A DNA stretch of 64,000 nt from Variovorax sp. TBS-050B. GTDB lineage: Bacteria; Pseudomonadota; Gammaproteobacteria; Burkholderiales; Burkholderiaceae_C. The stretch is from assembly GCF_029893635.1 (NCBI RefSeq), contig NZ_JARXYR010000002.1, positions 3,633,001 through 3,697,000 of the forward strand. Direction: 5' to 3'. Numbering within the stretch: position 1 is the first letter of the stretch; each line of letters opens with the position of its first letter. The notes beneath the pieces were generated by a model. The model was not told where the DNA came from. It was given only the letters and a program-made list of their open reading frames with translations, and made no database searches. This document shows, piece after piece, positions 3 to 13,532 of this stretch. The translations under genes and the position numbers were made by a program.

Positions 3-1358
3 CAGATCCAGTCGAAGGAAAGCAACATCGCCGTGGCCGAGCGGCTCGAACTGCGCCAGCTCACGCTGCAGATCGTCTCGCACCTGGCCGACAGCGACGC
101 CACGCTGCAGCGGCTGGTGGCCGAGTCCTCGCTGATGCTGCGGCTCGCGCGCGCCAGCGGCGCGGCCGTGGTGCTCGACGACGAGGTCTGGAGCGTGGGT
201 GACGTGCCGGCGCGCGCGCAGGTGCTGGAGATGGCCGACTGGATCGCCGGCCTCGGCGTGGAGGTCTACGAGAGCAGCACGCTGCTCACGCACTTCGCGC
301 CGGCCGCCGAGTTCCGCGAGGTCGCGGCGGGCGTGCTCGCGATCTCGATCTCGCAGGTGCACCGGCACCTGATCCTCTGGTTCCGCCCCGAGGTCGTGCA
401 GACCATCCAGTGGGCCGGCGATCCGAAGAAGCCGAAGGCCGCCGCCAGCGGCCGCATCCATCCGCGGCGCAGCTTCGCGAGCTGGGTCGAGGAGGTGCGC
501 GGCCGCTCGGTGCCCTGGTCGCCGGCCGAGGTGGCCGTGGCCGGCGAGCTGCGGCAGGCGCTGATCGGCGTGGTGCTGCGCCGCGCCGAGGAACTGGCGG
601 CCGTGGCCACCGAACTCGGCCGCGTCAACAAGGAGCTCGAGGCCTTCTCGTACACCGTCTCGCACGACCTGCGCGCGCCGATGCGGCACATCGCGGGCTA
701 CGTCGACCTGGTGGCGCAGACCGAGGGCCGGCAGCTCAGCGAGCGCGCCCACCGCTACCTCGGCCACGTGAAGGACGCGGCGGCCTTCGCGGGGCAGATG
801 GTCGATGCGCTGCTGGACTTCTCGCGCATGGGGCGCGCCGCGCTCAAGCGGCGCATGGTGGACACCGGCTCGCTGGTCGAGGGACTGGTGCGCGAGCTCG
901 GGCGCATCGAGCCTTCGCGGCGCGTGGAGTGGCAGATCGACCCCGAGCTGCCCGCGCTGCATGCCGATCCGCTGCTGCTGCAGGTGGCGGTGCGCAACCT
1001 GCTCGCCAACGCCGTCAAGTACTCGCGCACGCGCGATCCGCAGCGCATCGCGGTGCGCGCGATCCACGGCGACCTGGGCAGCGGGCTGGAGGTCGAGGAC
1101 AACGGCGTGGGCTTCCAGATGAAGTACGTCGACAAGCTGTTCGGCGTGTTCCAGCGGCTGCACCAGGCCGAGGAATTCGAGGGCACGGGCATCGGCCTGG
1201 CCAACGTGAAGCGGATCGTCGAGCGCCACGGCGGCAGGGTCTGGGCCAAGGGGGCGACGGGCGAGGGTGCGACCTTCGGCTTCGTCCTGCCGCACGTGGA
1301 GCCGGGCAGCGACAACGCGGCGGGCACGCCGCAGCACAACGGAGAAGGACATGCTTAA
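3..1358 (+). CDS. Phytochrome-like sensor histidine kinase, 5' end cut by window
   Basis: This is the C-terminal part of a bacteriophytochrome-type light-sensing histidine kinase. The frame is open from base 3, before the first possible start (GTG at 33), so the true start lies outside the window. The first ~170 residues resemble the PHY domain that follows the chromophore-binding GAF domain. A HisKA domain follows with motif SHDLRAP (phosphoacceptor His codon at 663-665), then a HATPase domain with the N-box NLLANAVKYS, the G1 box DNGVGF and the G2 box GTGIGLANV. The chromophore Cys region is not visible. The 3' end overlaps the next receiver gene by 8 bases, so the kinase and the small receiver are very likely co-transcribed and probably partners. 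Without the N-terminus, the phytochrome call rests on PHY similarity and gene order. Confidence 0.8.
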   Translation, partial: QIQSKESNIAVAERLELRQLTLQIVSHLADSDATLQRLVAESSLMLRLARASGAAVVLDDEVWSVGDVPARAQVLEMADWIAGLGVEVYESSTLLTHFAPAAEFREVAAGVLAISISQVHRHLILWFRPEVVQTIQWAGDPKKPKAAASGRIHPRRSFASWVEEVRGRSVPWSPAEVAVAGELRQALIGVVLRRAEELAAVATELGRVNKELEAFSYTVSHDLRAPMRHIAGYVDLVAQTEGRQLSERAHRYLGHVKDAAAFAGQMVDALLDFSRMGRAALKRRMVDTGSLVEGLVRELGRIEPSRRVEWQIDPELPALHADPLLLQVAVRNLLANAVKYSRTRDPQRIAVRAIHGDLGSGLEVEDNGVGFQMKYVDKLFGVFQRLHQAEEFEGTGIGLANVKRIVERHGGRVWAKGATGEGATFGFVLPHVEPGSDNAAGTPQHNGEGHA

Positions 1359-1809
1359 GCCGATCCTGCTCGTCGAGGACGACAAGCGAGACCTGGAACT
1401 CACCCTGATCGCGCTCGAGCGCAGCCAGCTCGCGAACGACGTGATCGTGCTGCGCGACGGCGCGCAGGCGCTCGACTACCTGCGCCGCGAGGGCGAGTAC
1501 GCCCGGCGGCCCGAAGGCAACCCGGCCGTGATCCTGCTCGACCTCAAGCTGCCCAAGGTCACGGGCCTGGAGGTGCTGCAGGCGGTGCGCGCCGACGTGG
1601 CGCTGCGCAGCATCCCGGTGGTCATGCTGACCTCGTCGCAGGAGGAATCGGACGTGCTGCGCAGCTACGAACTCGGGGTCAACGCCTACGTGGTCAAGCC
1701 CGTGGCCTTCGACCAGTTCGTCTCGGCGATCGCCGAGCTCGGCGTCTTCTGGGCCGTGCTGAACGAGCCGCCGCCCGGCTCGCTGAAGGCCGCGCGCCGA
1801 CATGAATGA
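1351..1809 (+). CDS. Single-domain response regulator (Rcp1-like)
   Basis: A 152-residue stand-alone receiver domain. The acidic pocket is in LLVEDDKRD near the N-terminus, the phosphoacceptor Asp in ILLDLKLPKV, the conserved Thr/Ser in VVMLTSSQEES, and the switch Lys in YVVKPV. There is no output domain. The length and motifs match the Rcp1/CheY-like regulators encoded next to phytochrome kinases, so phosphotransfer from the upstream kinase is the likely role. The start ATG at 1351 has a good GGAGAAGG ribosome binding site about 4 bases upstream and overlaps the kinase stop; its own stop overlaps the start of the hybrid kinase. Translational coupling of all three is likely. Confidence 0.9.
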   Translation: MLKPILLVEDDKRDLELTLIALERSQLANDVIVLRDGAQALDYLRREGEYARRPEGNPAVILLDLKLPKVTGLEVLQAVRADVALRSIPVVMLTSSQEESDVLRSYELGVNAYVVKPVAFDQFVSAIAELGVFWAVLNEPPPGSLKAARRHE

Positions 1810-3997
1810 GCGGGAGCCCGCGGACGCGGCGGCCGATGCGATCGACGTGCTCATCGTCGAGGACTCGCGCTTCGACGTCGAGCTGCTGACCGAGGCGCTC
1901 TCGACCGCGCTGCCCGCGTCGCGCACGCACGTCGTGCGCGACGAGCACGGCCTGACCGCGGCGCTGGTCGAGGGCCGCTATGCGCTGATCCTGTCGGACT
2001 ACGAGCTGCCGGGCTTCTCGGGCGAGGAGGCGCTGGAGATCGCGCGGCGGCTCGCGCCCGAGACGCCCTTCATCTTCGTCTCGGGCGTGATCGGCGAGGA
2101 CAACGCGGTCGAGCTGCTGCGCCGCGGCGCGGTCGACTACGTGAGCAAGGGACGGCTCGCGCGCCTGCCGCTGGTGCTGGACCGCGCGCTCAAGGAAGCC
2201 GCCGACCGGCGCGCGAAGCGGGTGGCCGAGTTCCAGCTCCAGGTGGCGAGCGAGGCCTTCCGCGAGGCGGAGTCGCGCCGGCTCGCGCTGATGGAACTGG
2301 GCGACCGGATCCGCGACATCGACGATCCGGGCGAGATCGCCTACGTGGCCTCGACCATGCTGGGCCAGCGCCTGGGCGTGGACCGCGCGGGCTACGGGCT
2401 GGTGGACAAGGTGGCCGAAACCATCGTGATCGAGCGCGACTGGACCGCGCCCGGCGTGGCCAGCCTCGCGGGCCTGCTGCATTTCCGCGACTACGGCTCC
2501 TACATCGAGGACCTGCGGCGCGGCCTGACCGTGGCCTTCGCCGATGCGCGCACCGACCCGCGCACGCGCGACAACGCAGACGCGCTCGACGCCATCACCG
2601 CGCGCGCGGTGGTCAACATGCCGCTGACCGAGCGCGGCGGCCTGGTGGGGCTGCTGTACCTGAACCACGGCCAGGTGCGCCACTGGACGCGCGACGAGCT
2701 CGACTTCGTGCGCGAGACCGGCGAACGCGTGCGCTCGGCCATCGCGCGGCGCGAGGCGCAGATCGAGCTCGAGGCCTTCGCCGAATCGCTGGAGCGCCAG
2801 GTCGAGGAGCGCGCGGCCGAACTCGAGGCCGCGCGCGACCAGCTGCGCCAGAGCCAGAAGCTCGAGGCCGTGGGCCAGCTCACCGGCGGTCTCGCGCACG
2901 ACTTCAACAACCTGCTGGCCGCCATCAGCGGCAGCCTGGAACTGATGCAGCGGCGCGGGCTCGACGGCCAGCGCAGCGAGATGGAGCGCTACATCGGCGT
3001 GGCCCAGGGCGCGGTCAAGCGCGCGGCCGCGCTCACGCACAGGCTGCTCGCGTTCTCGCGGCGGCAGACGCTGGAGCCCAAGCCACTCAACCCCAACCGG
3101 CTCGTGGCCGGCATGGAGGAACTGCTGCGGCGCACGCTCGGCCCGCAGATCGCGCTCGAGGTGGTGGCGGCGGTGGGCCTGTGGAACGTGCATGCCGACC
3201 CGAGCCAGCTCGAGAACGCGCTGCTCAACCTCTGCATCAATGCGCGCGACGCCATGCCCGAAGGCGGCAAGCTGGTGATCGAGACCGCCAACCGCTGGAT
3301 CGACGCGCGCACCGCGCAGGAGCGCGACATGCCGATGGGGCGCTACGTCTCGCTCACCGTCAGCGACAACGGCGTGGGCATGGCGCCCGAGGTGGCGGCG
3401 CGCGCCTTTGATCCCTTCTTCACGACCAAGCCGATCGGCATGGGCACCGGCCTCGGGCTGTCGATGATCTACGGCTTCGCGAAGCAGTCGGGCGGCCAGG
3501 TGCGCATCTATTCGGAGCTCGGCCGCGGCACGGCGGTCAGCATCTACCTGCCGCGCCACGACGCGCAGGAGGAAGCCGCGAGCGAACCGGCCGAGGCCAC
3601 GCTCGCGCCACGCGCCGACCAGGGCGACACGGTGCTGGTGGTGGACGACGAGCCCGCGCTGCGCATGATCATCGCCGAGGTGATGCGCGGCCTGGGCTAC
3701 GCCACGCTCGAGGCCGGCGACGGCGCGGCGGCGCTGCGCATCCTGCAGGCGCCGCGCCAGCGCATCGACCTGCTCGTGACCGACGTGGGCCTGCCCGGCG
3801 GCATGAACGGCCGCCAGGTGGCGGACGCGGCGCGCAGCGCGCGGCCCGGGCTCAAGGTGCTGTTCATCACGGGCTATGCCGAGAACGCGGTGCTGAGCCA
3901 CGGCCACCTCGACCCGGGCATGCACGTGATGACCAAGCCCTTCGAGATGGACATGCTCGCGCGGCGCGTCAAGGCGCTGATCGAGGCGGGGCCCTAG
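1802..3997 (+). CDS. Hybrid kinase: REC-GAF-HisKA-HATPase-REC
   Basis: A 731-residue cytosolic hybrid kinase with no membrane segment. Order: an N-terminal receiver ([13 protein letters not shown], phosphoacceptor in [10 protein letters not shown]), a GAF-like domain around residues 160-310, a coiled coil rich in Glu/Arg, a HisKA domain with [12 protein letters not shown] (a common H-box in receiver-linked kinases), a HATPase domain ([24 protein letters not shown]), and a C-terminal receiver ([22 protein letters not shown], Lys in MTKPFE). Its start overlaps the upstream receiver stop by 8 bases. The receiver-at-both-ends design suggests it integrates the signal from the upstream phytochrome-type kinase and passes it on; the final output is not encoded here. 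Confidence 0.9.
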
Positions 3998-4015
3998 GCA
4001 GGGCCGCCGGCGCCC

Positions 4016-4834
4016 TCAGCGTGCCGCGATCGGCTCCAGGCCGGTCTTCGCGATGGTCGGCGCGGCCTCGGGCGACTGCAGGTAGCGGATCAATTGGCGC
4101 GCCGCCTCGGGCTGCTTCGAGGCGGTCGCGATGCCGGCCGAGAACACCGTCACGCGCTGCACCTCGGCCGGCAGCGGACCGATGTAGTCGATGCCCTCGA
4201 TCGGCAGCAGCTCGCTGACCTGCTGCAGGCCGAGCGCCGCGTCGCCGCGCGCCACCACCGCACCCACGCGCTCGCTGAGGATGCGCTTGCTCTTCGGCTT
4301 GACCTCGGACTCGATGCCGAGCTTCTTGAGCAGCTCGGTCTCGTAGTAGGTGCCGCTCGCGCTGGCGGAGTAGGCGATCGAGGGCGCGGCCAGCAGCGTG
4401 CGCCTGAGCGCCTCGACGGTGCCGATGTCGGGCCGGGGCGCACCCTTCCTCACCGCGAAGCCGATCGACGAGCGCACCAGGTCGACCTGGCTGCCCGGCA
4501 CCACCTTGCCCTGCGCGACCAGCGCATCGAGCGCGGGCCGCGCGAGGATCACCACGTCGGCCGGCTCGTTGCGCGCGAGGCGGCTCGGGATCGAATCCTG
4601 CGCATTGCCCATCGAGGCGCCGTAGGCGGTCTTGACCGTGCGCCCGCTCGCGCGCTCGAAGCCGGGGCGCAGGTCGTTGTAGGCCGCGGTGAAGCCGCCC
4701 GAGGTCATCACGTGCAGATCGCCGGCCGCGTGCTGGCCGCCGAGGCTGCCGCAGCCGGCCAGCACCGCCGCTGCGGCGAACAGCGCGGCGCGGCGGGTCA
4801 GGCGGGCGAGGGAGGGAGCGGGTGTGGTCGTCAT
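4016..4834 (-). CDS. Orphan extracellular binding lipoprotein (ModA-like fold)
   Basis: A 272-residue solute-binding protein of the molybdate/sulfate-like class (SBP_bac_11 type). The N-terminus has an Arg-rich start, a hydrophobic stretch and a lipobox ending VLAGC, so it is probably anchored to a membrane by a lipidated Cys. The mature part begins LHVMTSGGFTAAYNDL and includes the stretch PADVVILARPALDAL, typical of ModA-like proteins. The motif SASGTYYETELLKKLG lies near the ligand cleft. No permease or ATPase gene lies beside it, so either its transporter is elsewhere or it acts as a sensor protein. The ligand cannot be told from sequence. It faces the hybrid kinase end to end. Confidence 0.8.
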   Translation of the reverse strand: MTTTPAPSLARLTRRAALFAAAAVLAGCGSLGGQHAAGDLHVMTSGGFTAAYNDLRPGFERASGRTVKTAYGASMGNAQDSIPSRLARNEPADVVILARPALDALVAQGKVVPGSQVDLVRSSIGFAVRKGAPRPDIGTVEALRRTLLAAPSIAYSASASGTYYETELLKKLGIESEVKPKSKRILSERVGAVVARGDAALGLQQVSELLPIEGIDYIGPLPAEVQRVTVFSAGIATASKQPEAARQLIRYLQSPEAAPTIAKTGLEPIAAR

Positions 4835-5022
4835 GGTCTGGTGTCTCCTTGTGTGGTGCCGGCCACCTTAGGCCGCAAGGCTGTCAAAGGGCTTTCAGCC
4901 GCGTGGGGGTATTCACGGACCCGATGCGACCGGGCCGGCGCGGGGTAACGACTTTGGCCTACAAGGGCCCCCAAAGGGCGGTCCTAGCTTGCATTCATCG
5001 ACAACAACCCAAGGAGATTCCG

Positions 5023-5469
5023 ATGAAGCTCACGAAACGCATGGCCCCGACCGTGGTGGCCCTCCTGATGGGCGCCTGTGTCGCGCCGCTGGCCCTGGCC
5101 GCGGGTGGCGCTGGTGGTGGTGGCGGCGGCGGTGGCGGTGGTGCAGGGGGCGGCGGCAGCGGTGCGGGCAGCAGCGCCTCCGCCGGCGCGAACGGCAACG
5201 GCGCGGGCGCCTCGGGCAGCTCCAACGCTTCGGCCAATGCGGCCACCCCCGCCACCCCGGCCACGCCTGCGACACCCGCCACGGCCACGTCGCCCGCGAC
5301 GCCGGCCACGCCTGCGACACCGGCCACGCCTTCGCCGCAGTCGTCCTCTTCGACCTCGTCCACCTCGACGATGTCGACCACGCCTGCGACGCCCGCGGTG
5401 CCGGCCTCGAAATCGTCGACCGGCAAGACCACGCCCGCGGTCCCGGCCACGCCGGGCAGCAAGCAGTAG
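5023..5469 (+). CDS. Exported low-complexity protein: Gly-rich then TPA repeats
   Basis: A 148-residue protein of unknown function. The ATG at 5023 follows an AAGGAG site. Residues 1-26 form a signal peptide (MKLTKRM, a hydrophobic core, cleavage likely after LALAA). The rest is low complexity: a poly-Gly tract, a Gly/Ser/Ala/Asn tract, then runs of Thr-Pro-Ala with a short Ser/Thr tract and ending in PATPGSKQ. The TPA blocks are also repeated at DNA level, with two copies of a roughly 20-base unit around 5259-5330, so copy number may vary by slippage. Such Pro/Thr/Ala linkers usually span the cell wall or periplasm, but no catalytic or binding domain is present. It could be an envelope stress protein or a spurious product of a repetitive stretch; the signal peptide and ribosome binding site favour a real gene. 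Confidence 0.65.
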   Translation: MKLTKRMAPTVVALLMGACVAPLALAAGGAGGGGGGGGGGAGGGGSGAGSSASAGANGNGAGASGSSNASANAATPATPATPATPATATSPATPATPATPATPSPQSSSSTSSTSTMSTTPATPAVPASKSSTGKTTPAVPATPGSKQ

Positions 5470-5482
5470 CCGGCCGCAGGGC

Positions 5483-6394
5483 TCAGTCCAGCCGCCCGCT
5501 CGCCAGCGCGGCGGCCGCGGCCCGCGTCTCCACGCCGAGCTTCTCGAAGATGTGTTCGAGGTGCTTGTTCACGGTGCGCGGGCTGGTGCCGAGAATCTCG
5601 CCGATGTCGCGGTTGGTCTTGCCCTTGGCGAGCCACGAGAGCACTTCGGTCTCGCGCGGCGTGAGCGCGGCCTCGGCCAGCCGCGCCGAGGGGCCGCTGC
5701 CGGCCGCGCCGTCGCGCTGCAGCGCCAGCAGCAGCATGGTCTCGCCGAGCGCAGCGGCTCCGAGGTTGCGCACCGAGAGCCGGGTCCCGTCGGCTGTCGT
5801 GATGGCCGCGGCGGCGCCAGGCGCGAGCACGGGCTCGAGCGAGTCCGGCAGCAGCCCGCTCGCGGAGGGCACGCCCAGCGCCTGCAGCCAGCGCGCGGCC
5901 TGCGGCGAACGCCACGCGATGCGTCCGTGCGCATCGACGAACACCACGCCCATGCCGGCCACGTCGACCGCGTCGCGCGCCATGCGGGTGATGCGCGCGT
6001 TGCGCGCATGCGTGTGCAGCCGCGCGAGCACCTCCTGCGCGCGGATCGGCTTCACCACGTAGTCCACGCCGCCGCATTCGAAGCCCTCGACCACGTGCGA
6101 GGTCTCGGAGAGCCCGGTCATGAACAGCACCGGCACGTGCGCGAGCGCGGCATTGGCCTTGATGCGGCGGCAGGTCTCGAAGCCCGAGAGGCCGGGCATC
6201 ATGCCGTCGAGCAGGATGGCGTCGGGCACCACCAGCTCGAGCCGCTGCAGCGCGGCCTCGCCGTCGCCGGCCACCAGCACGGTGTAGCCGCTGGCCTCGA
6301 GCGTGTCGCAGAGCATGCCGAGGCTGCTGGGCGCGTCGTCCACGACCAGCACCACGGGGCGTTCGCTGTCGTCAGGGTGTGAAGGTGTCGGCAT
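5483..6394 (-). CDS. Response regulator: REC-PAS-like-LuxR HTH
   Basis: A DNA-binding response regulator of about 303 residues. The receiver has VVLVVDDAPSS, the phosphoacceptor Asp in AILLDGMMPG and the switch Lys in YVVKPIRA. A middle region (GMGVVFVDAHGRIAWRS) looks like a small PAS fold. The C-terminus is a NarL/LuxR helix-turn-helix with LTPRETEVL and GKTNRDIGEILGTS. I place the start at 6394, which overlaps the end of the hybrid kinase gene by 23 bases; an ATG at 6427 would add 11 residues. The overlap makes the kinase its partner almost by definition. The targets are not shown, but the divergent urt-fmd operon beyond the kinase gene is the obvious candidate. Confidence 0.9.
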   Translation of the reverse strand: MPTPSHPDDSERPVVLVVDDAPSSLGMLCDTLEASGYTVLVAGDGEAALQRLELVVPDAILLDGMMPGLSGFETCRRIKANAALAHVPVLFMTGLSETSHVVEGFECGGVDYVVKPIRAQEVLARLHTHARNARITRMARDAVDVAGMGVVFVDAHGRIAWRSPQAARWLQALGVPSASGLLPDSLEPVLAPGAAAAITTADGTRLSVRNLGAAALGETMLLLALQRDGAAGSGPSARLAEAALTPRETEVLSWLAKGKTNRDIGEILGTSPRTVNKHLEHIFEKLGVETRAAAAALASGRLD

Positions 6395-9300
6395 CTTCGG
6401 TTTCGGCAAGGGTCTTGCGGAGGGCATCGAGGTCGAAGCGCGCGAGCATGCCGCGCAGCCAGGTGCAGCTCGCGGCCGCCGCGGGCGAGGCGGCCGCGAG
6501 CCGGTCCAGCGCCTGGTGCAGGCCGCGCACGTGGCCCATCTGCACCAGCCGCATCAGCTCGGCGCGGTCGTCTTCCGAGAGCGCGAGCCGCGGCGGCCGC
6601 GGGGCCGCATCGACGGACGGCGGCATCGCATCGGCGGCGGCCAGCCATTCGAGGCCGAGGTGGCGCTCGAGCGTGGCGATCAGCTCCGATTCGATGACCG
6701 GCTTGCCCACGAAGGCCTGGCAGCCGGCCGCGCGCAGCAGCTCGCCCTGGTTCTCGAACATGTTGGCCGAGACGATGATGATCGGGATGCCGTCGAAGCC
6801 CGCGGCGCGCACCTGCGCCGCGGTCTGCCAGCCGTCCATGTCGTCCATGCTGAGGTCGAGCAGGATCGCGGCCGGCAGGTGCTCGCGCAGGCTGTCGAGG
6901 CATTCGGTGCCGCTCGCGGCCTCGCGCACCTCGAAGCCCAGCGGCGCGAGCATGCCCGCGAGCATCTGGCGCTGCACCGGCTGGTCGTCGACAACGAGCA
7001 GCGTGCGCCGCGCGCCGAGGTAGCCCGAGACCGGCCGCCGGGTCTCGGCCTGCGGGCCCGGGTCGGCCACCTCGCGCAGGTAGACGCGCACGCTGAAGGT
7101 GCTGCCCGCGGGCGAGCTGGCCGCGAGCCGCAGCTCGCCGCCCATGAGCGAGGTCAGCAGGCCGGTGATGGTGAGGCCGAGCCCGGTGCCCGGCTCGCCG
7201 CGCCGGCGGCCCGCGGCGCCGCGCTCGAAGGGCAGGAAGATGCGCTGGTGGTCCTGCGGCGCCACGCCGATGCCGGTGTCGACCACGTCGAAGCGCAGCA
7301 CCTCGCGCCGCGCGTCCACGTGCAGCGTGACCGTGCCGCTGTCGGTGAAGCGCACCGCGTTGGCCAGCAGGTTGATGAGGATCTGGCGCAGCCGCTTGGC
7401 GTCGGCATGCACCCAGGGCGGCAGCCGGCCGCTGCGCGTGTGGACAAAGGCCAGGCCCTTGTTCTCGGCCTGCGGGCGCACCATGTGGACCAGCTCGTCG
7501 AGGAAGGCCGGCAGCGCGAGCGGCGCCGGCTCGAGCTGCAGCCGGCCGGCCTCGATGCGCGCGAGGTCGAGCAGGCCGTCGATCAGGCCGAGCATGTGCT
7601 CGCCGCTGCGCTGGATGGTCTGCACCGCCTCGCGCGGCGGCGCCGCGGCCTCGCCCTTGAGCAGGATCTGCGAGTAGCCGAGGATGCTGTTCAGCGGCGT
7701 GCGCAGCTCGTGCGTCATGCCCGCGACGTAGCGGGTCTTGGCCTGGTTCGCGGCCTCGGCCGCTTCCTTGGCGGCCTGCAGCGCGGCATCGGTGCGCCGG
7801 TGCGCCTCGATCTCGACCGTGAGCAGGTGGTTGTGCCGGTTCGATTCCTCCTGCGCCATCTGCCGGCTCTCGCTGCCGAGCACGATCCACCAGGCCGCCA
7901 CCGCGGCCACCAGCGACAGCAGCGCGAAGACCTTGAGGAAGGCATTGCGCAGTGCCGGGTCGAGCGCATCGGCGCCGACGATGGTCTCCTGCGCGTACAC
8001 CACGCCCATCACGGTGGCGAGCAGCGCCACCAGCGAGGCGGCGACCATCAGGTAGTGCGCGACCCGGAAGTTGAGCCGGCCCGACAGCGCGGGCGGCAGC
8101 AGGGCGTCGAGCCAGCCGCTCATCTGCTCGGCCGCGCGCGAATCGGTCTTGCAGCGGTCGTGGCAGCGCGATTCGAGCGTGCAGCACAGCGAGCAGATCG
8201 GCGCGCTGTAGGCCGGGCAGTGCGCCATGTCCTCCGACTCGAAGCTGTTGTCGCAGACCGAACACTTGACGAGCTGGCCCGGCGTCCAGCGCTGCAGGTC
8301 GGTGCGCGCGAGGTAGTAGCGCCCGCGCGTGCGCCAGGCCAGCAGCGGCGACACCGCGAGCGCGGTGGCGAGCGCGATGAACGGCGAGAACGCGCGTGCC
8401 GCATGCCCGAGCAGGCCGGAGTAGGCCAGCATCGCGAAGGCGGCCGCCACCAGCATCGCGCCCAGGCCCACCGGGTTGATGTCGTAGAGGTGCGCGCGCT
8501 TGAACTCGACCGCCTTCGGGCTCCAGCCCAGCGGCTTGTTGATGACCAGGTCGGCCACCAGCGCGCCGACCCAGGCGATCGCGATGTTGCTGTAGAAGCC
8601 CAGCACATGCTCCAGCGCCGCGAACACGCCGAGCGTCATCAGCAGGATGGCGATCACCACGTTGAACACCAGCCACACCACGCGCCCCGGATGGCTGTGG
8701 GTGAGCCGCGCGAAGAAGTTCGACCAGGCGAGCGAGCCGGCATAGGCGTTCGTGAGGTTGATCTTCATCTGCGACACCACCACGAACAGCACCGTGACGC
8801 CGAGCACCCAGGCGGGGTCGCGCAGCACGTAGGAGAAGCCCGTGAGGTACATCTGCGTCGGCTCGACCGCATGCGCGGGCGGTATCTCGTGCTGCAGCGC
8901 CAGGAAGGCCAGGAAGGCGCCGCCCATCATCTTGAGCATGCCGGGCACGATCCAGCCCGGGCCCGCGACCAGCACCGCGCTCCACCAGCGCACGCGGTTG
9001 GCGGCGGTCTTCTCGGGCAGGAAGCGCAGGTAGTCCACCTGCTCGCCGATCTGCACCACGAGCGAGAAGGCCACGGTGGCGGCGGCGCCGAACAGCAGCG
9101 GGTCGAAGCCGCTGCTGTCGGCGCTGCGTCCGATCAGGCCGGTGAAGTCGGCGTACAGCGCGGGCTGCTTCACGAGCACCGCGACGAAGGGGCAGACGAA
9201 CAGCACGATCCAGATCGGCTGCGTCCACAGCTGCAGCCCCGAGATCAGCGTGATGCCGCGCGCCACCAGCGGAATGATCACGATCGAGGACACCAGGTAG

Positions 9301-9761
9301 AGCAGCCACAGCGGCCAGTCCAGGTACATCTGCAGCGCGAGCGCGAGGATCGCGGCCTCGAGCGCGAAGAAGATGAAGGTGAAGCTCGCGTAGATCAGCG
9401 AGGTGAGCGTCGAGCCCAGGTAGCCGAAGCCGGCGCCGCGCGTGAGCAGGTCCATGTCCACGCCGTGGCGCGCTGCGTAGTAGGAGATCGGCAGCCCGGT
9501 GAAGAAGGTGACGAGGCCCACCACCAGGATCGCCCAGAGCGCATTCCAGAAGCCGTAGCTCAGTGCGATCGCGCCGCCGATGGCCTCCAGCGCCAGGAAG
9601 GAGGTGGCGCCGAAGGCCGCGTTGGCGACGCGGAACTCCGACCACTTGCGGAAGCTGCGCGGCGTGTAGCGCAGCGCGTAGTCCTCCAGCGTCTCGTTCG
9701 CGACCCAGGCGTTGTAGTCGCGGCGGATGCGGAAGATCTTCTGTCCGGAGACGGAGGGCAT
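6372..9761 (-). CDS. NCS1-permease/hybrid histidine kinase fusion with Cys-rich module
   Basis: A 1129-residue membrane sensor. Residues 1 to about 475 look like a complete nucleobase:cation symporter-1 (NCS1/CodB-type) permease with around twelve hydrophobic helices. Residues 500-537 form a Cys cluster (C500, C503, C515, C523, C526, C527, C533, C537) suited to zinc or an iron-sulfur centre. Two further helices lie near 566-585 and 608-628, then a coiled coil, HisKA (His684 in GMTHELRTPLN), HATPase (NLLANAVRF, DTGIGV, GTGLGLT), a receiver (LLVVDDQP, ILLDLSMDD) and a 100-residue tail. The layout parallels CbrA, where an SLC5 transporter is fused to a kinase. ATG 9761 is chosen because the family-like sequence begins there; 9791 and 9806 are alternatives. 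It is divergent from urtABCDE-fmdAB, so sensing of urea, amides or a related N-source is inferred. Confidence 0.9.
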   Translation of the reverse strand: MPSVSGQKIFRIRRDYNAWVANETLEDYALRYTPRSFRKWSEFRVANAAFGATSFLALEAIGGAIALSYGFWNALWAILVVGLVTFFTGLPISYYAARHGVDMDLLTRGAGFGYLGSTLTSLIYASFTFIFFALEAAILALALQMYLDWPLWLLYLVSSIVIIPLVARGITLISGLQLWTQPIWIVLFVCPFVAVLVKQPALYADFTGLIGRSADSSGFDPLLFGAAATVAFSLVVQIGEQVDYLRFLPEKTAANRVRWWSAVLVAGPGWIVPGMLKMMGGAFLAFLALQHEIPPAHAVEPTQMYLTGFSYVLRDPAWVLGVTVLFVVVSQMKINLTNAYAGSLAWSNFFARLTHSHPGRVVWLVFNVVIAILLMTLGVFAALEHVLGFYSNIAIAWVGALVADLVINKPLGWSPKAVEFKRAHLYDINPVGLGAMLVAAAFAMLAYSGLLGHAARAFSPFIALATALAVSPLLAWRTRGRYYLARTDLQRWTPGQLVKCSVCDNSFESEDMAHCPAYSAPICSLCCTLESRCHDRCKTDSRAAEQMSGWLDALLPPALSGRLNFRVAHYLMVAASLVALLATVMGVVYAQETIVGADALDPALRNAFLKVFALLSLVAAVAAWWIVLGSESRQMAQEESNRHNHLLTVEIEAHRRTDAALQAAKEAAEAANQAKTRYVAGMTHELRTPLNSILGYSQILLKGEAAAPPREAVQTIQRSGEHMLGLIDGLLDLARIEAGRLQLEPAPLALPAFLDELVHMVRPQAENKGLAFVHTRSGRLPPWVHADAKRLRQILINLLANAVRFTDSGTVTLHVDARREVLRFDVVDTGIGVAPQDHQRIFLPFERGAAGRRRGEPGTGLGLTITGLLTSLMGGELRLAASSPAGSTFSVRVYLREVADPGPQAETRRPVSGYLGARRTLLVVDDQPVQRQMLAGMLAPLGFEVREAASGTECLDSLREHLPAAILLDLSMDDMDGWQTAAQVRAAGFDGIPIIIVSANMFENQGELLRAAGCQAFVGKPVIESELIATLERHLGLEWLAAADAMPPSVDAAPRPPRLALSEDDRAELMRLVQMGHVRGLHQALDRLAAASPAAAASCTWLRGMLARFDLDALRKTLAETEDADTFTP

Positions 9762-9876
9762 GGCGGTTTCTCGCGGCGGCGGGGATGGCATGCGGCAGCA
9801 GAGCAAGAAGCGCTCCCTGTGCCCGCTCCGGACCGCGCCGGCCTGCGAGTGTGCGGCCCGCGCGCGCTTCTGCTGC

Positions 9877-9892
9877 TACGTTGAATGACGTA
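9877..9892. promoter_or_regulatory. Inverted repeat in divergent kinase/urtA promoter region
   Basis: TACGT-N6-ACGTA, a perfect 5-base inverted repeat in the 246-base gap between the permease-kinase gene and urtA, about 115 bases before each start. NarL/LuxR-type regulators bind short inverted repeats of this general size, and the regulator paired with the kinase is of that class. A 5-base arm can occur by chance, so this is only a candidate operator. No convincing -35/-10 pair was seen in the gap. Confidence 0.3.
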
Positions 9893-10007
9893 TTCGCGCC
9901 GGCGCCACTGATTTCTAAAGTTCCAGCCATGGTGCTCGGGGCACCGTCCGATGCACTGCGATGGTGCGCGGTCCACCCGCTGTTCTTCAACCTGCTGGAG
10001 CTTCCTG

Positions 10008-11274
10008 ATGTCGCGTGATTCCGATCCTTCCCTCGATGCCCTCGCATTGCGCCGCCGCCGCCTGCTGCAGGGCGCGGCCGCACTGCCGGTGATGGGCCTG
10101 AGCGGCCTGAGCTTCGGCCAGGGCCAGTTCCCCACGGCCAAGGTCAACACCACCAAGCTCGCGGTGACCGACACCGAGGTCACGGTGGGCCAGCTGCATT
10201 CGTCCACCGGCACCATGGCGATCTCGGAGACCGGCTCGATCCAGGCCGAGCAGCTCGCGATCGACCAGATCAACGCGATGGGCGGCATCCTCGGCCGCAA
10301 GATCAAGGTCATCAAGGAGGACGGCGCCTCCGACTGGCCCACCTTCGCCGAGAAGTCGAAGAAGCTGCTGGTCAACGACAAGGTCGCGGCCGTGTTCGGC
10401 TGCTGGACCAGCGCCTCGCGCAAGGCCGTGCTGCCGGTGTTCGAGAAGGAGAACGGCCTGCTGTACTACCCGACCTTCTACGAGGGCCTCGAGCAGAGCA
10501 AGAACGTGATCTACACCGGCCAGGAGGCCACGCAGCAGATCATCTGGGGCCTGGACTGGGGCGCCAAGGAGAAGAAGGCGAAGACCTTCTTCCTCGTGGG
10601 CTCCGACTACATCTGGCCGCGCACCTCGATGAAGATCGCGCGCAAGCACATCGAGAACTTCCAGAAGGGCACGGTCAAGGGCGAGGAGTACTACCCGCTG
10701 GGCCACACCAACTTCAACTCGCTGATCAACAAGATCAAGGTCGCGAAGCCCGACTGCATCTTCGCGGCGGTGGTGGGCGGCTCGAACGTGGCGTTCTACA
10801 AGCAGCTCAAGGCCGCGGGCATCACGGGCGACAAGCAGTTCCTGCTGACGCTGGCCGTGACCGAGGACGAGATGACCGGCGTGGGCGGCGAGAACTTCGC
10901 GGGCTTCTATTCGTCGATGAAGTACTTCCAGTCGCTGGACAACCCGAACAACAAGAAGTTCGTCGAGGCCTTCAAGGCCAAGTACGGCAAGGATGCGGTT
11001 GATCGGCGACGTCACGCAGGCGGGCTACCTCGGCCCCTGGCTCTGGAAGGCCGCGGTCGAGAAGGCCGGCAGCTTCGACGTCGACAAGGTGGTGGCCGGC
11101 TCGCCGGGCATCGAGCTCAAGACCGCGCCCGAAGGCTACGTGAAGCTCGATGCGAACCACCACCTGTGGAGCAAGGCGCGCATCGGGCAGGGGCAGCCGG
11201 ACGGCAGCTTCAAGGTGGTGGCGGAGTCGAGCGAGCTGATCAAGCCGGATCCGTTCCCCAAGGGCTACCAGTGA
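10008..11274 (+). pseudogene. urtA: urtA, urea/amide ABC transporter binding protein, one-base frameshift
   Basis: The periplasmic binding protein of the urea or short-chain amide ABC transporter. It starts at ATG 10008 with a twin-arginine-type signal (LRRRRLLQG, then a hydrophobic stretch ending FGQ). The mature part has the UrtA landmarks VTVGQLHSSTGTMAISE, FGCWTSASRKAVLPVFE and GLLYYPTFYEGLEQS. The first frame stays coding for about 330 residues to KYGKDAV, then runs into nonsense; the missing C-terminus (IGDVTQAGYLGPWLWKAAVE to FPKGYQ) continues one frame over until 11274. One extra T in GCGGTTGATCGG at 10999-11000 explains it exactly. Both parts are otherwise intact and typical, so the lesion is either very recent or a sequencing error. 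It heads the urtBCDE-fmdAB operon. Confidence 0.9.
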
Positions 11275-11280
11275 CCTTTT

Positions 11281-11320
11281 CTCCCTCCCCCGCTGGGGGA
11301 GGGCAGGGGTGGGGGCAAGC
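11281..11320 (+). repeat. Dispersed C/G-rich intergenic repeat, copy 1
   Basis: A 40-base element between urtA and urtB with an inner hairpin (CTCCCCC / GGGGGAG) followed by GGGGTGGGGGCAAGC. An inverted second copy lies at 11342-11381 and a third at 19735-19773. It resembles REP-like intergenic elements. Together copies 1 and 2 could fold into a long hairpin between urtA and urtB in the mRNA, which might protect or attenuate the binding-protein message. Confidence 0.7.
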
Positions 11321-11341
11321 GACGCTTCCATCGTCACCGCC

Positions 11342-11381
11342 GCATGCCCCCATCCCGACCTTCCCCCAGAGGGGGAAGGAG
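11342..11381 (-). repeat. Dispersed C/G-rich intergenic repeat, copy 2 (inverted)
   Basis: The inverted partner of the copy at 11281-11320: GCCCCCATCCCGACC, then the hairpin CTTCCCCC-AGA-GGGGGAAG. It agrees with the copy at 19735-19773 at nearly every base. It lies just before the urtB start and partly in frame with a spurious upstream start at 11309. Confidence 0.7.
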
Positions 11382-11407
11382 CCAGAAAACCAGCAACGGA
11401 CATCGCC

Positions 11408-12322
11408 ATGACGCTCTCGGACATGTGGAACATCGGCCTGATGCAGGGCTTCGCGGGGCTCAGCCTCTTCGCGGTGCTGCTGCTCATGGGCCTGGGCCTC
11501 GCGATCATCTTCGGCCAGATGGGCGTGATCAACATGGCGCATGGCGAGTTCATGACCATCGGGGCCTATTCGATCTACCTCGCGGCGCAGGTGACCGAGC
11601 GGCTCTCGCCGGCCTGGATGCCGTACTACTTCCCGGTTGCGATCGCGCTGGCCTTCGTGTTCGCCTTCGTGGTCGGCTGGATTGTCGAATGGCTGCTGAT
11701 CCGGCACCTGTACCGCCGGCCGCTCGACACGCTGCTCGCCACCTGGGGCGTGAGCCTGGGGCTGCAGCAGGTCTTCCGCACCTTCATCGGGCCGAAGGAG
11801 GTGAGCCCCACGCTGCCCGACTGGCTCATGGGGTCGTGGACGCCGCACGAAGGCCTGGACATCCCGATCAACGGCCTGTTCGTGCTCGCGCTCACGGCAT
11901 TGGCCACGCTCGGCGTGCTGCTCGCGCTGCACAAGAGCCGCTGGGGCCTCAGGGTGCGCGCCACGGTCGCCAACCGCACCATGGCCAACGCCACCGGCAT
12001 CGACACGAAGAAGACCGACCGCCTGACCTTCGCCATCGGCTGTGGCATCGCGGGCGTGGCGGGCGCGGCCTTCACCACCATCGGCTCGACCGGGCCGACC
12101 TCGGGCTCGCTCTACATCGTCGATGCCTTTCTGGTCGTGACCTTCGGCGGCGCCGCGAGCCTGCTGGGCACCGTGGTCTCGGCCTTCGGCATCGCGCAGA
12201 CGCAATCGGTGTCGGAGTTCTTCATGACCGGCTCGATGGCCAAGGTGCTGACGCTCTCGCTGATCGTGCTGATCCTCATGCTGCGTCCCCAGGGCCTGTT
12301 CGCCGTGAAAGTCCGCCGTTGA
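11408..12322 (+). CDS. urtB: Urea/amide ABC transporter permease UrtB
   Basis: A 304-residue inner-membrane permease of the branched-chain amino acid (LivH) type. It has many hydrophobic helices and the family landmarks IIFGQMGVINMAHGEFMTIG, LIRHLYRRPLDTLLATWGVS and ALHKSRWGLRVRATVANRTM. Both the length and these motifs match UrtB. I chose ATG 11408 (MTLSDMWNIG) because the longer frame from 11309 runs through the intergenic repeat. It forms the membrane channel with UrtC. It is 28 bases upstream of urtC, and it should be co-transcribed with urtA. Confidence 0.93.
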   Translation: MTLSDMWNIGLMQGFAGLSLFAVLLLMGLGLAIIFGQMGVINMAHGEFMTIGAYSIYLAAQVTERLSPAWMPYYFPVAIALAFVFAFVVGWIVEWLLIRHLYRRPLDTLLATWGVSLGLQQVFRTFIGPKEVSPTLPDWLMGSWTPHEGLDIPINGLFVLALTALATLGVLLALHKSRWGLRVRATVANRTMANATGIDTKKTDRLTFAIGCGIAGVAGAAFTTIGSTGPTSGSLYIVDAFLVVTFGGAASLLGTVVSAFGIAQTQSVSEFFMTGSMAKVLTLSLIVLILMLRPQGLFAVKVRR

Positions 12323-12350: not shown

Positions 12351-13532
12351 ATGAATTTCATCAAGGCCTCGATCCGGCGCTACCAGCTCGGCAGCCTGTT
12401 GCTGCTGGTGCTGCTGCTCGCGGTGGTGCTGCCGCTCACGCTCGACATCTTCCGCCTCAACCTGGTGGGCAAGTACCTCACCTATGCCTTCGTCGCCGTC
12501 GGCCTGGTGATGGTGTGGGGCTACGGCGGCGTGCTGAGCCTGGGGCAGGGCGTTTTCTTCGGCATCGGCGGCTACGCGATGGCGATGTTCCTCAAGCTCG
12601 AGGCCTCCGATCCCGTGTCCACGAAGATCCAGACCACGCCCGGCATCCCGGACTTCATGGACTGGAACCAGATCACCGAGCTCCCTGCGCTGTGGCTGCC
12701 CTTCCGGAGCCTGCCGCTGAGCCTCGCGCTGGTGGTGCTGGCGCCGATGGCGCTCGCCTGGCTGATCAGCTTCGCGATGTTCAAGCGCCGCGTGGGCGGC
12801 GTGTACTTCGCGATCATCACGCAGGCGGTGGCGCTGATCCTCACGGTGCTGATCATCGGCCAGCAGGGCTACACCGGCGGCGTGAACGGCATGACCGACC
12901 TGAAGACGATGCTGGGCTGGGACACGCGCACCGACGGCGCGAAGTACGTCCTCTACTACGTCTGCGTGGGGCTGCTGGTGGCGAGCATCGTGCTGTGCCG
13001 CTGGATCCAGACCAGCAAGCTCGGCACGCTGCTGCTCGCGATGCGCGACAAGGAGGACCGGGTGCGCTTCTCGGGCTACGACGTGTCGAACTTCAAGGTC
13101 TTCACCTTCTGCCTGGCGGCGGCGCTCTCGGGCATCGGCGGCGCGCTGTTCGCGCTGCAGGTGGGCTTCATGTCGCCGAGCTTCGTGGGCATCGTGCCCT
13201 CGATCGAGATGGTGATCTTCTGCGCCGTGGGCGGGCGCATGAGCCTGGTCGGCGCGGTCTACGGCGCGCTGCTGGTGAACGCGGGCAAGACGCTGTTCTC
13301 CGAGAGCTTTCCGGACCTGTGGCTGTTCCTGATGGCTGCGCTCTTCATCGGCGTGACGATGGCCTTCCCGATGGGCCTGGCCGGCCTGTGGGACGAGAAG
13401 ATCCGGCCGTGGTGGAAGGCGCGCCGCCAGGCGCTGCGCGACGCCGCGGTGAAGCCGCCGCCCGCCGCGCATGCGCCGGCGCCCGTGGTCGAACCCCAGC
13501 TGCCCGACGGTGTCGGCAGCCAGCGCGCCTGA
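12351..13532 (+). CDS. urtC: Urea/amide ABC transporter permease UrtC
   Basis: A 393-residue LivM-type permease and partner of UrtB. Features are MVWGYGGVLSLGQGVFFGIG, a long loop with QTTPGIPDFMDWNQITELPA (typical of the UrtC insert), GQQGYTGGVNGMTDL and MRDKEDRVRFSGYDVSNFK. The C-terminus has a Pro/Ala-rich cytoplasmic tail. A GGAG ribosome binding site precedes ATG 12351. The next gene, urtD, begins 16 bases after the stop, which fits a single operon. Confidence 0.93.
   Translation: MNFIKASIRRYQLGSLLLLVLLLAVVLPLTLDIFRLNLVGKYLTYAFVAVGLVMVWGYGGVLSLGQGVFFGIGGYAMAMFLKLEASDPVSTKIQTTPGIPDFMDWNQITELPALWLPFRSLPLSLALVVLAPMALAWLISFAMFKRRVGGVYFAIITQAVALILTVLIIGQQGYTGGVNGMTDLKTMLGWDTRTDGAKYVLYYVCVGLLVASIVLCRWIQTSKLGTLLLAMRDKEDRVRFSGYDVSNFKVFTFCLAAALSGIGGALFALQVGFMSPSFVGIVPSIEMVIFCAVGGRMSLVGAVYGALLVNAGKTLFSESFPDLWLFLMAALFIGVTMAFPMGLAGLWDEKIRPWWKARRQALRDAAVKPPPAAHAPAPVVEPQLPDGVGSQRA

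Follow-up and report, generated by a model that had tools for sequence, protein, structure and literature searches.

A hybrid histidine kinase built on an NCS1-type transporter faces a urt-fmd operon in Variovorax and is a probable receptor for urea or short-chain amides

The stretch analysed here (the window) is 64,000 nucleotides of Variovorax sp. TBS-050B, positions 3,633,001 to 3,697,000 of contig NZ_JARXYR010000002.1. On its minus strand lies the gene of a hybrid sensor histidine kinase that begins with a complete transporter module; it is followed by the gene of a LuxR-type response regulator and is divergent from an operon for urea and amide uptake and formamidase. The features of the kinase and of its regulator, in window positions, are:

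6372 to 9761, minus strand: hybrid sensor kinase, open reading frame (ORF) from the ATG at 9761, 1129 residues, Pfam matches to HisKA, HATPase and REC
8301 to 9761, minus strand: NCS1-type transporter module, residues 1-487, the first transmembrane helix (TM1) with a break at 55 and E59
8139 to 8273, minus strand: eight-Cys module, residues 497-541, all 8 Cys in 114/114 kinases
7866 to 8075, minus strand: two extra hydrophobic helices, residues ~563-632, from hydropathy
7545 to 7742, minus strand: HisKA, residues 674-739, with H684, PF00512 E 2.2e-19
7077 to 7403, minus strand: HATPase_c, residues 787-895, PF02518 E 1.2e-23
6669 to 6998, minus strand: receiver, residues 922-1031, PF00072 E 6.6e-19
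6375 to 6668, minus strand: C-terminal tail, residues 1032-1129, without Pfam match or recognised domain
5483 to 6427, minus strand: LuxR-type response regulator, REC at 26-137 and GerE at 254-309 (Pfam), helix SPRTVNKHLE

With HisKA, HATPase_c and a receiver on one chain, the protein is a hybrid histidine kinase, and the regulator, a receiver joined to a GerE helix-turn-helix (HTH), is of the LuxR/NarL type (Pfam in both cases). The domain order given in the first-pass annotation, i.e. a permease-like domain, a Cys cluster, two helices, kinase, receiver and tail, was confirmed by Pfam, a structure model and hydropathy, as was the overlap of the kinase with its regulator: the longest regulator ORF, starting at 6427, shares 56 nt with the kinase ORF. 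Hydropathy places the extra helices at ~563-596 and ~603-632; the first was modelled at low confidence and the second lies beyond the 600 residues modelled. D969 is likely to be the phospho-acceptor of the kinase's own receiver, an assignment that we made from its LLDLSM context. The Pfam scan gave no match N-terminal to residue 674, the presence of the STAC model in the library being unchecked, and no PAS or other soluble input domain above threshold in the kinase. Neither the scan nor a search for the motif by eye recognised a histidine phosphotransfer (Hpt) domain in the tail. In the regulator, residues ~140-250 (window 5678-6010), between receiver and HTH, have no Pfam match and look PAS-like by eye.

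The transporter module was assigned through its relatives and its fold because direct searches failed: the module alone had no match in a direct Pfam scan, including none to SLC5 (SSF), and none in a sequence search of the PDB. Two standalone relatives exceed the PF02133 cut-off of 23.5 bits, L097 (49% identical to the module) with 31.8 bits and L152 (31% identity over 475 residues, E 6e-34) with 36.4 bits; two more, L086 and L269, have no Pfam match. A model of kinase residues 1-600 (mean predicted local distance difference test score 86.3, predicted template modelling score 0.86) gave its best structural alignments to CodB and Mhp1, both NCS1 proteins, at 15-18% identity, the module thus having a LeuT-type fold nearest to known NCS1 structures; SLC5-fold structures also align to the modelled module but rank below those of NCS1. 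The identification as a permease had been made to hang on profile similarity in homologues; such similarity was found via relatives, together with similarity of fold to NCS1 permeases. To our knowledge, neither a kinase fusion nor a Cys tail is part of CodB or Mhp1. JGI's automatic annotation already describes this kinase as fused to a purine-cytosine permease-like protein; databases thus show the architecture, though not its role.

The operon divergent from the kinase comprises:

10008 to 11274 (longest ORF 9951-11411), plus strand: urtA, TIGR03407 412.8 bits, profile positions 1-275 of 361, ends set by eye
11408 to 12322, plus strand: urtB, TIGR03409 394.9 bits, cut-off 250.3
12351 to 13532, plus strand: urtC, TIGR03408 432 bits
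13471 to 14292, plus strand: urtD, longest ORF, with the profile match from residue 33, TIGR03411 375.2 bits
14296 to 14997, plus strand: urtE, TIGR03410 334.5 bits
15043 to 16275, plus strand: fmdA, formamidase, NF045496 764.1 bits
16289 to 16642, plus strand: FmdB-family Zn ribbon / RPWMISH protein, NF053663 and TIGR02605

NCBIfam profiles thus bear out the first reading of these genes as an amide/urea transport and formamidase operon (urtABCDE, fmdA and an FmdB-type gene), with scores above cut-off for every gene except UrtA. The latter falls below its cut-off of 492.75 bits because the reading frame breaks near 11000 (~10990-11010), the 3' part continuing in another frame; this is either real damage or a sequencing error.

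We searched for the module in overlapping genome samples drawn by class, phylum and order, in which 17/369, 53/398 and 35/200 genomes, respectively, carry it. Neighbourhoods were compared in 97 stretches, L009 and the window, which hold 98 fused-kinase genes in 97 of the 99 stretches (hits G574, G586, G749 and G780 were left out). Genes were picked by a length/composition script of our own, and the family labels of the genome searches were the only grouping for relatedness. The script often sets starts too far upstream, and genes can be hidden by antisense picks (fmdA in the window's own stretch, for instance); because genes are missed in this way, neighbour counts are lower bounds. For amiE, urtD, ureD, ureE, ureF, ureG and a porin, the cluster name was checked with a profile search of a single member; the other names were taken from genes of the window and L009, and clusters below about the twentieth are mostly unnamed. 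The first-pass annotation had allowed for a neighbour set unrelated to nitrogen compounds in most genomes; instead, urt, fmdA, amiE or ure genes lie within 8.5 kb of at least 83 of the 98 fused kinases (urt at 69, fmdA at 48, ure at 26 and amiE at 25) and in 33 of 44 family labels. The regulator gene stands directly downstream on the same strand in 87/98, mostly overlapping (three come from other regulator clusters, in L137, L139 and L175). The 53 urt-only and the 10 ure-only kinases differ from each other at few residues, mostly by conservative changes, and we therefore claim no ligand switch.

Between the kinase and urtA lies a candidate control site:

9877 to 9892, no strand assigned: palindrome TACGTTGAATGACGTA, an exact TACGT-N6-ACGTA, the proposed regulator site

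The palindrome is 115 bases from the kinase ATG at 9761 and 115 bases from the likely urtA ATG at 10008 (our own assignment), and its 16-base span presumably fits the 7-2-7 site of NarL-type regulators. Among 42 divergent kinase/urtA loci (in 13 of which the ORF start served as kinase start), 17 have the exact palindrome and 31 a looser form, TACGY-N6-RCGTA; in the shuffle control of these loci, any exact dyad reached at most 3 in 50 shuffles. The 1.85 Mb of the 99 stretches contain 44 exact sites: 37 near the ORF start of a kinase, urtA or fmdA, 6 inside picks for these genes that are longer than the cluster median, and 1 elsewhere (L158:367). Some stand at genes apart from the kinase, at fmdA in L084, L113, L130 and L133 (88-101 bases) and at urtA in L151 (88 bases). 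The link between kinase and urt-fmd had first been drawn from position only; the link is supported and the restriction to position falls, because the palindrome recurs upstream of fmdA and urtA where these stand apart from the kinase. Within 500 bases before the kinase, the looser form occurs in 38/53 urt-only, 3/16 urt-plus-ure, 1/10 ure-only and 3/19 other loci, and its density is 1.06 per kb before kinases versus 0.012 per kb outside (control palindrome 0 and 8); 14 of the 22 looser sites outside are near fmdA or urtA. It is also present in 16/16 kinase/transporter intergenic regions of Acinetobacter, a single genus. A sigma-54-like promoter was found in 2/23 upstream regions, within the shuffle range.

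The kinase, the regulator, urtABCDE, formamidase and the palindrome are also found on conjugative plasmids of Klebsiella (L273 5897-16252) and Raoultella (L274), and a plasmid of Burkholderia vietnamiensis likewise has the kinase-urt layout with the palindrome (one plasmid was read for each of the three); the kinase or its module has matches in 340 Klebsiella plasmid records. Such plasmids are what one would expect if an ordinary kinase merely travelled with a mobile urt-fmd island without controlling it. We regard this as highly improbable, as the pairing persists in 33/44 family labels with different layouts, and the fmdA and urtA genes of L084, L113, L130, L133 and L151 carry the palindrome in upstream regions of their own.

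The host genome contains one other full-length member of the kinase family, 58% identical over residues 6-674 and back to back with ureA, hupE/ureJ, ureB, ureC and more urease genes. UreC has a single match in this genome, so that the host's only UreC and its urt-fmd operon each adjoin a kinase of the NCS1-fused family. UrtC has one further match, 37% identical, adjoining a second urtA and urtB; this second urtA-urtB(-urtC) operon is at L278 6232-9318 (G000:C2:291231-294317). The looser palindrome occurs at 3 sites in the host genome, versus ~11 expected from composition and 55 for the reversed control: in the window, 91 bases before the second urtA, and where an unrelated ORF begins. The site at the second urtA reads TACGCC-N4-GGCGTA, a pattern that we scanned for, with up to two mismatches, in eleven urease-linked loci. 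Four hits have at most one mismatch, two of them at ureA/kinase (L117 and L126), one 104 bases upstream of urtA (L119, exact) and one inside an over-long urtA pick (L110), where we estimate it to lie ~95 bases upstream of urtA by the usual UrtA length. Seven hits have two mismatches, two at a kinase or ureA (L009 and L119) and five not; L085, L109, L163, L143 and L150 have no TACGCC-type site within two mismatches. Six regulators of urease-linked loci read SPATxKKHLE and the urt-linked ones mostly S(P/A)RTVxKHLE. These sites and motifs suggest that the two paralogous kinase/regulator pairs may have separated their DNA targets.

The transporter module shares about half of its residues with standalone proteins annotated as purine-cytosine, cytosine or allantoin permease. 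Among the best 80 of 573 standalone loci, from named genomes, 24 have some urease gene (ureC in 22), 7 have urea carboxylase together with allophanate hydrolase, identified by profile in a single member, and 16, all Acinetobacter, have a fused kinase with its regulator; in total, 47 have at least one of urease, urea carboxylase or kinase as neighbour. Kinase and transporter genes adjoin each other in Acinetobacter baylyi DSM 14961 (L205). In Klebsiella, Raoultella and Salinisphaera the standalone gene comes after ureG. Three genomes that belong to one genus (one of their transporters being named Acidihalobacter prosperus) have the standalone transporter, followed by fmdA and amiE, divergent from the kinase. 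Because transporter and urea/amide genes are repeatedly paired, urea, or urea together with short-chain amides, is favoured as ligand. A nucleobase, hydantoin or allantoin might instead be sensed, the urea genes acting downstream in purine breakdown; the permease names of the relatives fit this, as do an eight-Cys relative (L269) accompanied by adenosine deaminase, a Bmp-type binding protein and an amidase, and a phosphorylase-superfamily gene (PF01048) near kinases in 5 stretches. We hold it to be very improbable, since, among clusters named mainly down to about the twentieth, genes for urea transport, urease, urea carboxylase and amidase are found most often beside the kinases and the standalone proteins. 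In preference to a nucleobase or hydantoin, we take urea or short-chain amides as the likely ligand.

How sensor and transporter differ was followed in two trees rooted on the distant L152. The first has 197 sequences (114 fused, 82 standalone and the outgroup L152); the wider one has 397, comprising the same 114 fused proteins, L086, L097 and L152, every second of the 80 standalone loci, and 240 proteins P0121-P0360. C500, C503, C515, C523, C526, C527, C533 and C537 are each present in 114/114 fused kinases. C500, C503, C523 and C526 are likewise present in 82/82 standalone transporters, as against 25/82 for C515 and 1/82 for C527, C533 and C537, and the complete set of eight recurs in 120 standalone transporters of the wider tree. 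The eight-Cys cluster proposed in the first-pass annotation is therefore real in the kinase and is not peculiar to it; with four of the eight Cys in all 82 transporters, the Cys module as a kinase-specific feature was dropped. By our own reading, a cross-brace, in which Cys pairs 1 and 3 hold one metal and the rest another, would fit this putative metal-binding module. The near-restriction of C527, C533 and C537 to the kinases, and the greater frequency of C515 in them (114/114 versus 25/82), would also suit a module that is itself the sensor, of a metal (nickel for urease, or zinc) or of redox state, with the permease as an anchor. Given eight Cys in 120 transporters without a kinase, four in all 82, and named neighbours that are urea/amide genes, we consider this improbable.

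Across sensors and transporters alike, 83 alignment columns are conserved, many of them polar (E26, D27, D102, E135, Q237, E240, Q241, D243, R246, K277, Q331, K333, N335, N338, Y340 and D404). TM1 sets the two apart: L, M, I or Y at 58 and Glu at 59 in 114/114 kinases versus Asp at 58, followed by F, Q, L or M, in 160/160 four-Cys and 119/120 eight-Cys transporters. The eight-Cys standalone relative L269 (8306-10051) has a TM1 unlike that of either group; its neighbours (1471-11624) are a Bmp-type binding protein, adenosine deaminase, an M20-family gene and amidases. In the 397-sequence tree the four-Cys transporters (160 plus one odd member) form a clade with support 0.985, the eight-Cys transporters (120 plus one odd member) one with 0.95, and the 114 kinases one with 0.97, sister to the eight-Cys transporters at 0.976. 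The transporter-kinase fusion, widespread in the sampled Proteobacteria, is thus one clade. The named members of the eight-Cys transporter clade are largely what we take to be acidophiles. Read from these sequences, the simplest order of events would be the second Cys site first, then the fusion and the TM1 change; alternatively, the eight-Cys transporters may once have lost a kinase.

Two described SLC5-STAC sensor kinases, CbrA and MxtR(CrbS), have, in the passages available, the same general plan: a HisKA kinase that is served by a regulator of its own is preceded, on the same chain, by a complete transporter domain (PMC7096432, PMC7918813). Where their transporter is of SLC5 type, the present family has an NCS1 transporter, an eight-Cys module and two helices as linker, a LuxR-type regulator, and urea/amide neighbours. 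According to the passages on CbrA, its SLC5 domain transports histidine and is inessential for signalling (PMC7096432). By analogy, the NCS1 domain might transport or merely modulate, the kinase answering an internal nitrogen or metabolic signal, which the transport-type polar residues retained in the sensors would allow. We think this unlikely: the x58-E59 pair in every kinase, against D58 in nearly all transporters, speaks for a changed role of the pocket in the kinases, and the Pfam scan offers no PAS or other soluble domain to receive such an input.

From the architecture, the fold, the single fusion clade, the conserved urea/amide neighbourhood and the conserved palindrome, all computed here, we infer which ligand is bound, in which direction control runs, that the regulator binds the palindrome, by which route the phosphoryl group travels and whether transport has changed. 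We propose, with a probability of roughly two in three, a transporter turned receptor: an NCS1-fused kinase that senses urea and/or short-chain amides and drives urtABCDE-fmdAB through its LuxR-type regulator, with the urea sensing read from neighbours and palindrome. Urea and/or short-chain amides would be bound by the NCS1-fold domain; the Cys module, followed by the pair of added helices, would relay a ligand-driven rearrangement of the LeuT-type core to the HisKA dimer, which would autophosphorylate at H684. The phosphoryl group would then move to the overlapping LuxR-type regulator, a direct transfer that we assume, with D969 taken as a modulator, because no Hpt was found. The regulator would bind TACGT-N6-ACGTA midway between the divergent genes and switch on urtABCDE-fmdAB, probably the kinase operon too; the paralogous pair of the same genome faces the urease operon. 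The separate NCS1-type nutrient-sensing design next to a nitrogen-source operon that was first suggested is supported by neighbourhood, palindrome and fold.

Several results weigh against this proposal. Of the 98 kinases, 15 are without urt, fmdA, amiE or ure neighbours; 6 of these (L092, L094, L096, L122, L168 and L169) have ~5 kb of contig or less upstream and the other 9 have a longer stretch there, and one (in L087) shares its stretch with a second, urt-linked kinase. No urease, urea carboxylase or kinase accompanies 33 of the best 80 standalone loci, many in Streptomyces and other actinobacteria, which weakens the inference on the ligand. The exact palindrome occurs once in the host genome, where ~1.0 is expected from base composition and a reversed control pattern occurs 5 times; its uniqueness proves nothing, and place and conservation carry the weight. 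An initial count of 18/23 upstream regions with the exact palindrome, from a subset that dropped 19 of the 42 divergent loci, falls to 17/42 when all are counted, and in 11/42 the looser form is missing as well. At the urease-side paralogue, nothing matches the urt-type palindrome within two mismatches. The standalone protein P0337, the exception among the eight-Cys transporters, has a kinase-like TM1 pair, LE, and the eight-Cys relative L269 sits among purine genes. The dispensability of the CbrA transporter domain for signalling, as given in the passages available, counts on the same side (PMC7096432).

A fuller history is put forward tentatively, at somewhat less than even odds. A dedicated membrane receptor kinase for urea/amides, widespread in Proteobacteria, would have arisen once from an NCS1-type urea transporter by a four-Cys tail, a second four-Cys site, kinase fusion, and a TM1 shift from D58 to E59 that made the carrier a receptor. 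Coupling would run through a joint formed by the second Cys site, and the DNA code would have been divided between paralogous pairs, TACGT-type for urt-fmd and TACGCC-type for urease and the second urt operon.

The closest parallel for a nitrogen-compound transporter repurposed as the receptor of a fused kinase is, as far as the passages seen describe it, Ks-Amt5, an Amt-histidine kinase fusion of Kuenenia (PMC5764959). According to the same partial sources, Ks-Amt5 binds without transport, whereas CbrA does transport (PMC5764959, PMC7096432). Ks-Amt5 differs in being an Amt trimer with no HAMP, PAS or STAC linker, its regulator is not identified in those passages, and it is described for one anammox bacterium (PMC5764959), whereas NCS1-fused kinases occur in many Proteobacteria. 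For the operon, the parallel is fmdCABDEF of Methylophilus methylotrophus, which, in the passages of a review, takes up urea and short-chain amides, includes a formamidase, is induced by formamide and urea and is repressed by ammonia (PMC10781810). Those passages name a putative positive regulator and no sensor kinase; the terms "histidine kinase" and "two-component" are absent from that review (PMC10781810). In open-licence PubMed Central we found no paper describing an NCS1-fused kinase as a urea sensor, and none joining a cytosine permease with a hybrid sensor histidine kinase. A Dechloromonas genome table lists a 1131-residue histidine kinase and a 308-residue receiver protein next to UrtA, its passages saying no more (PMC2907700), and a urea ABC transporter operon whose genes bear the same names is treated in a preprint about a single lineage, the text of which never uses the words kinase, sensor or two-component (PMC13060141). 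The family extends the known transporter-linked sensor kinases with an NCS1 fold and a probable urea/amide role. If that role is right, it would provide a sensor through which urea and amides induce urt-fmd and urease operons, and NCS1 would be added to the few transporter folds that serve as receptors. The standalone relatives would flank the change from transporter to receptor, making it testable by swapping a few residues, and the kinase-regulator-urt-formamidase unit also rides on conjugative plasmids of Klebsiella.

Two further observations concern the surroundings. The kinase of L166, one of those without urt, fmdA, amiE or ure neighbours, stands beside a nitrogenase-type gene (4968-6437, PF00148), another nitrogen setting. 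In the window itself, further two-component-like genes lie on the plus strand at 33-3997, ~1.5 kb past the regulator, with a kinase match at 2813-3871.

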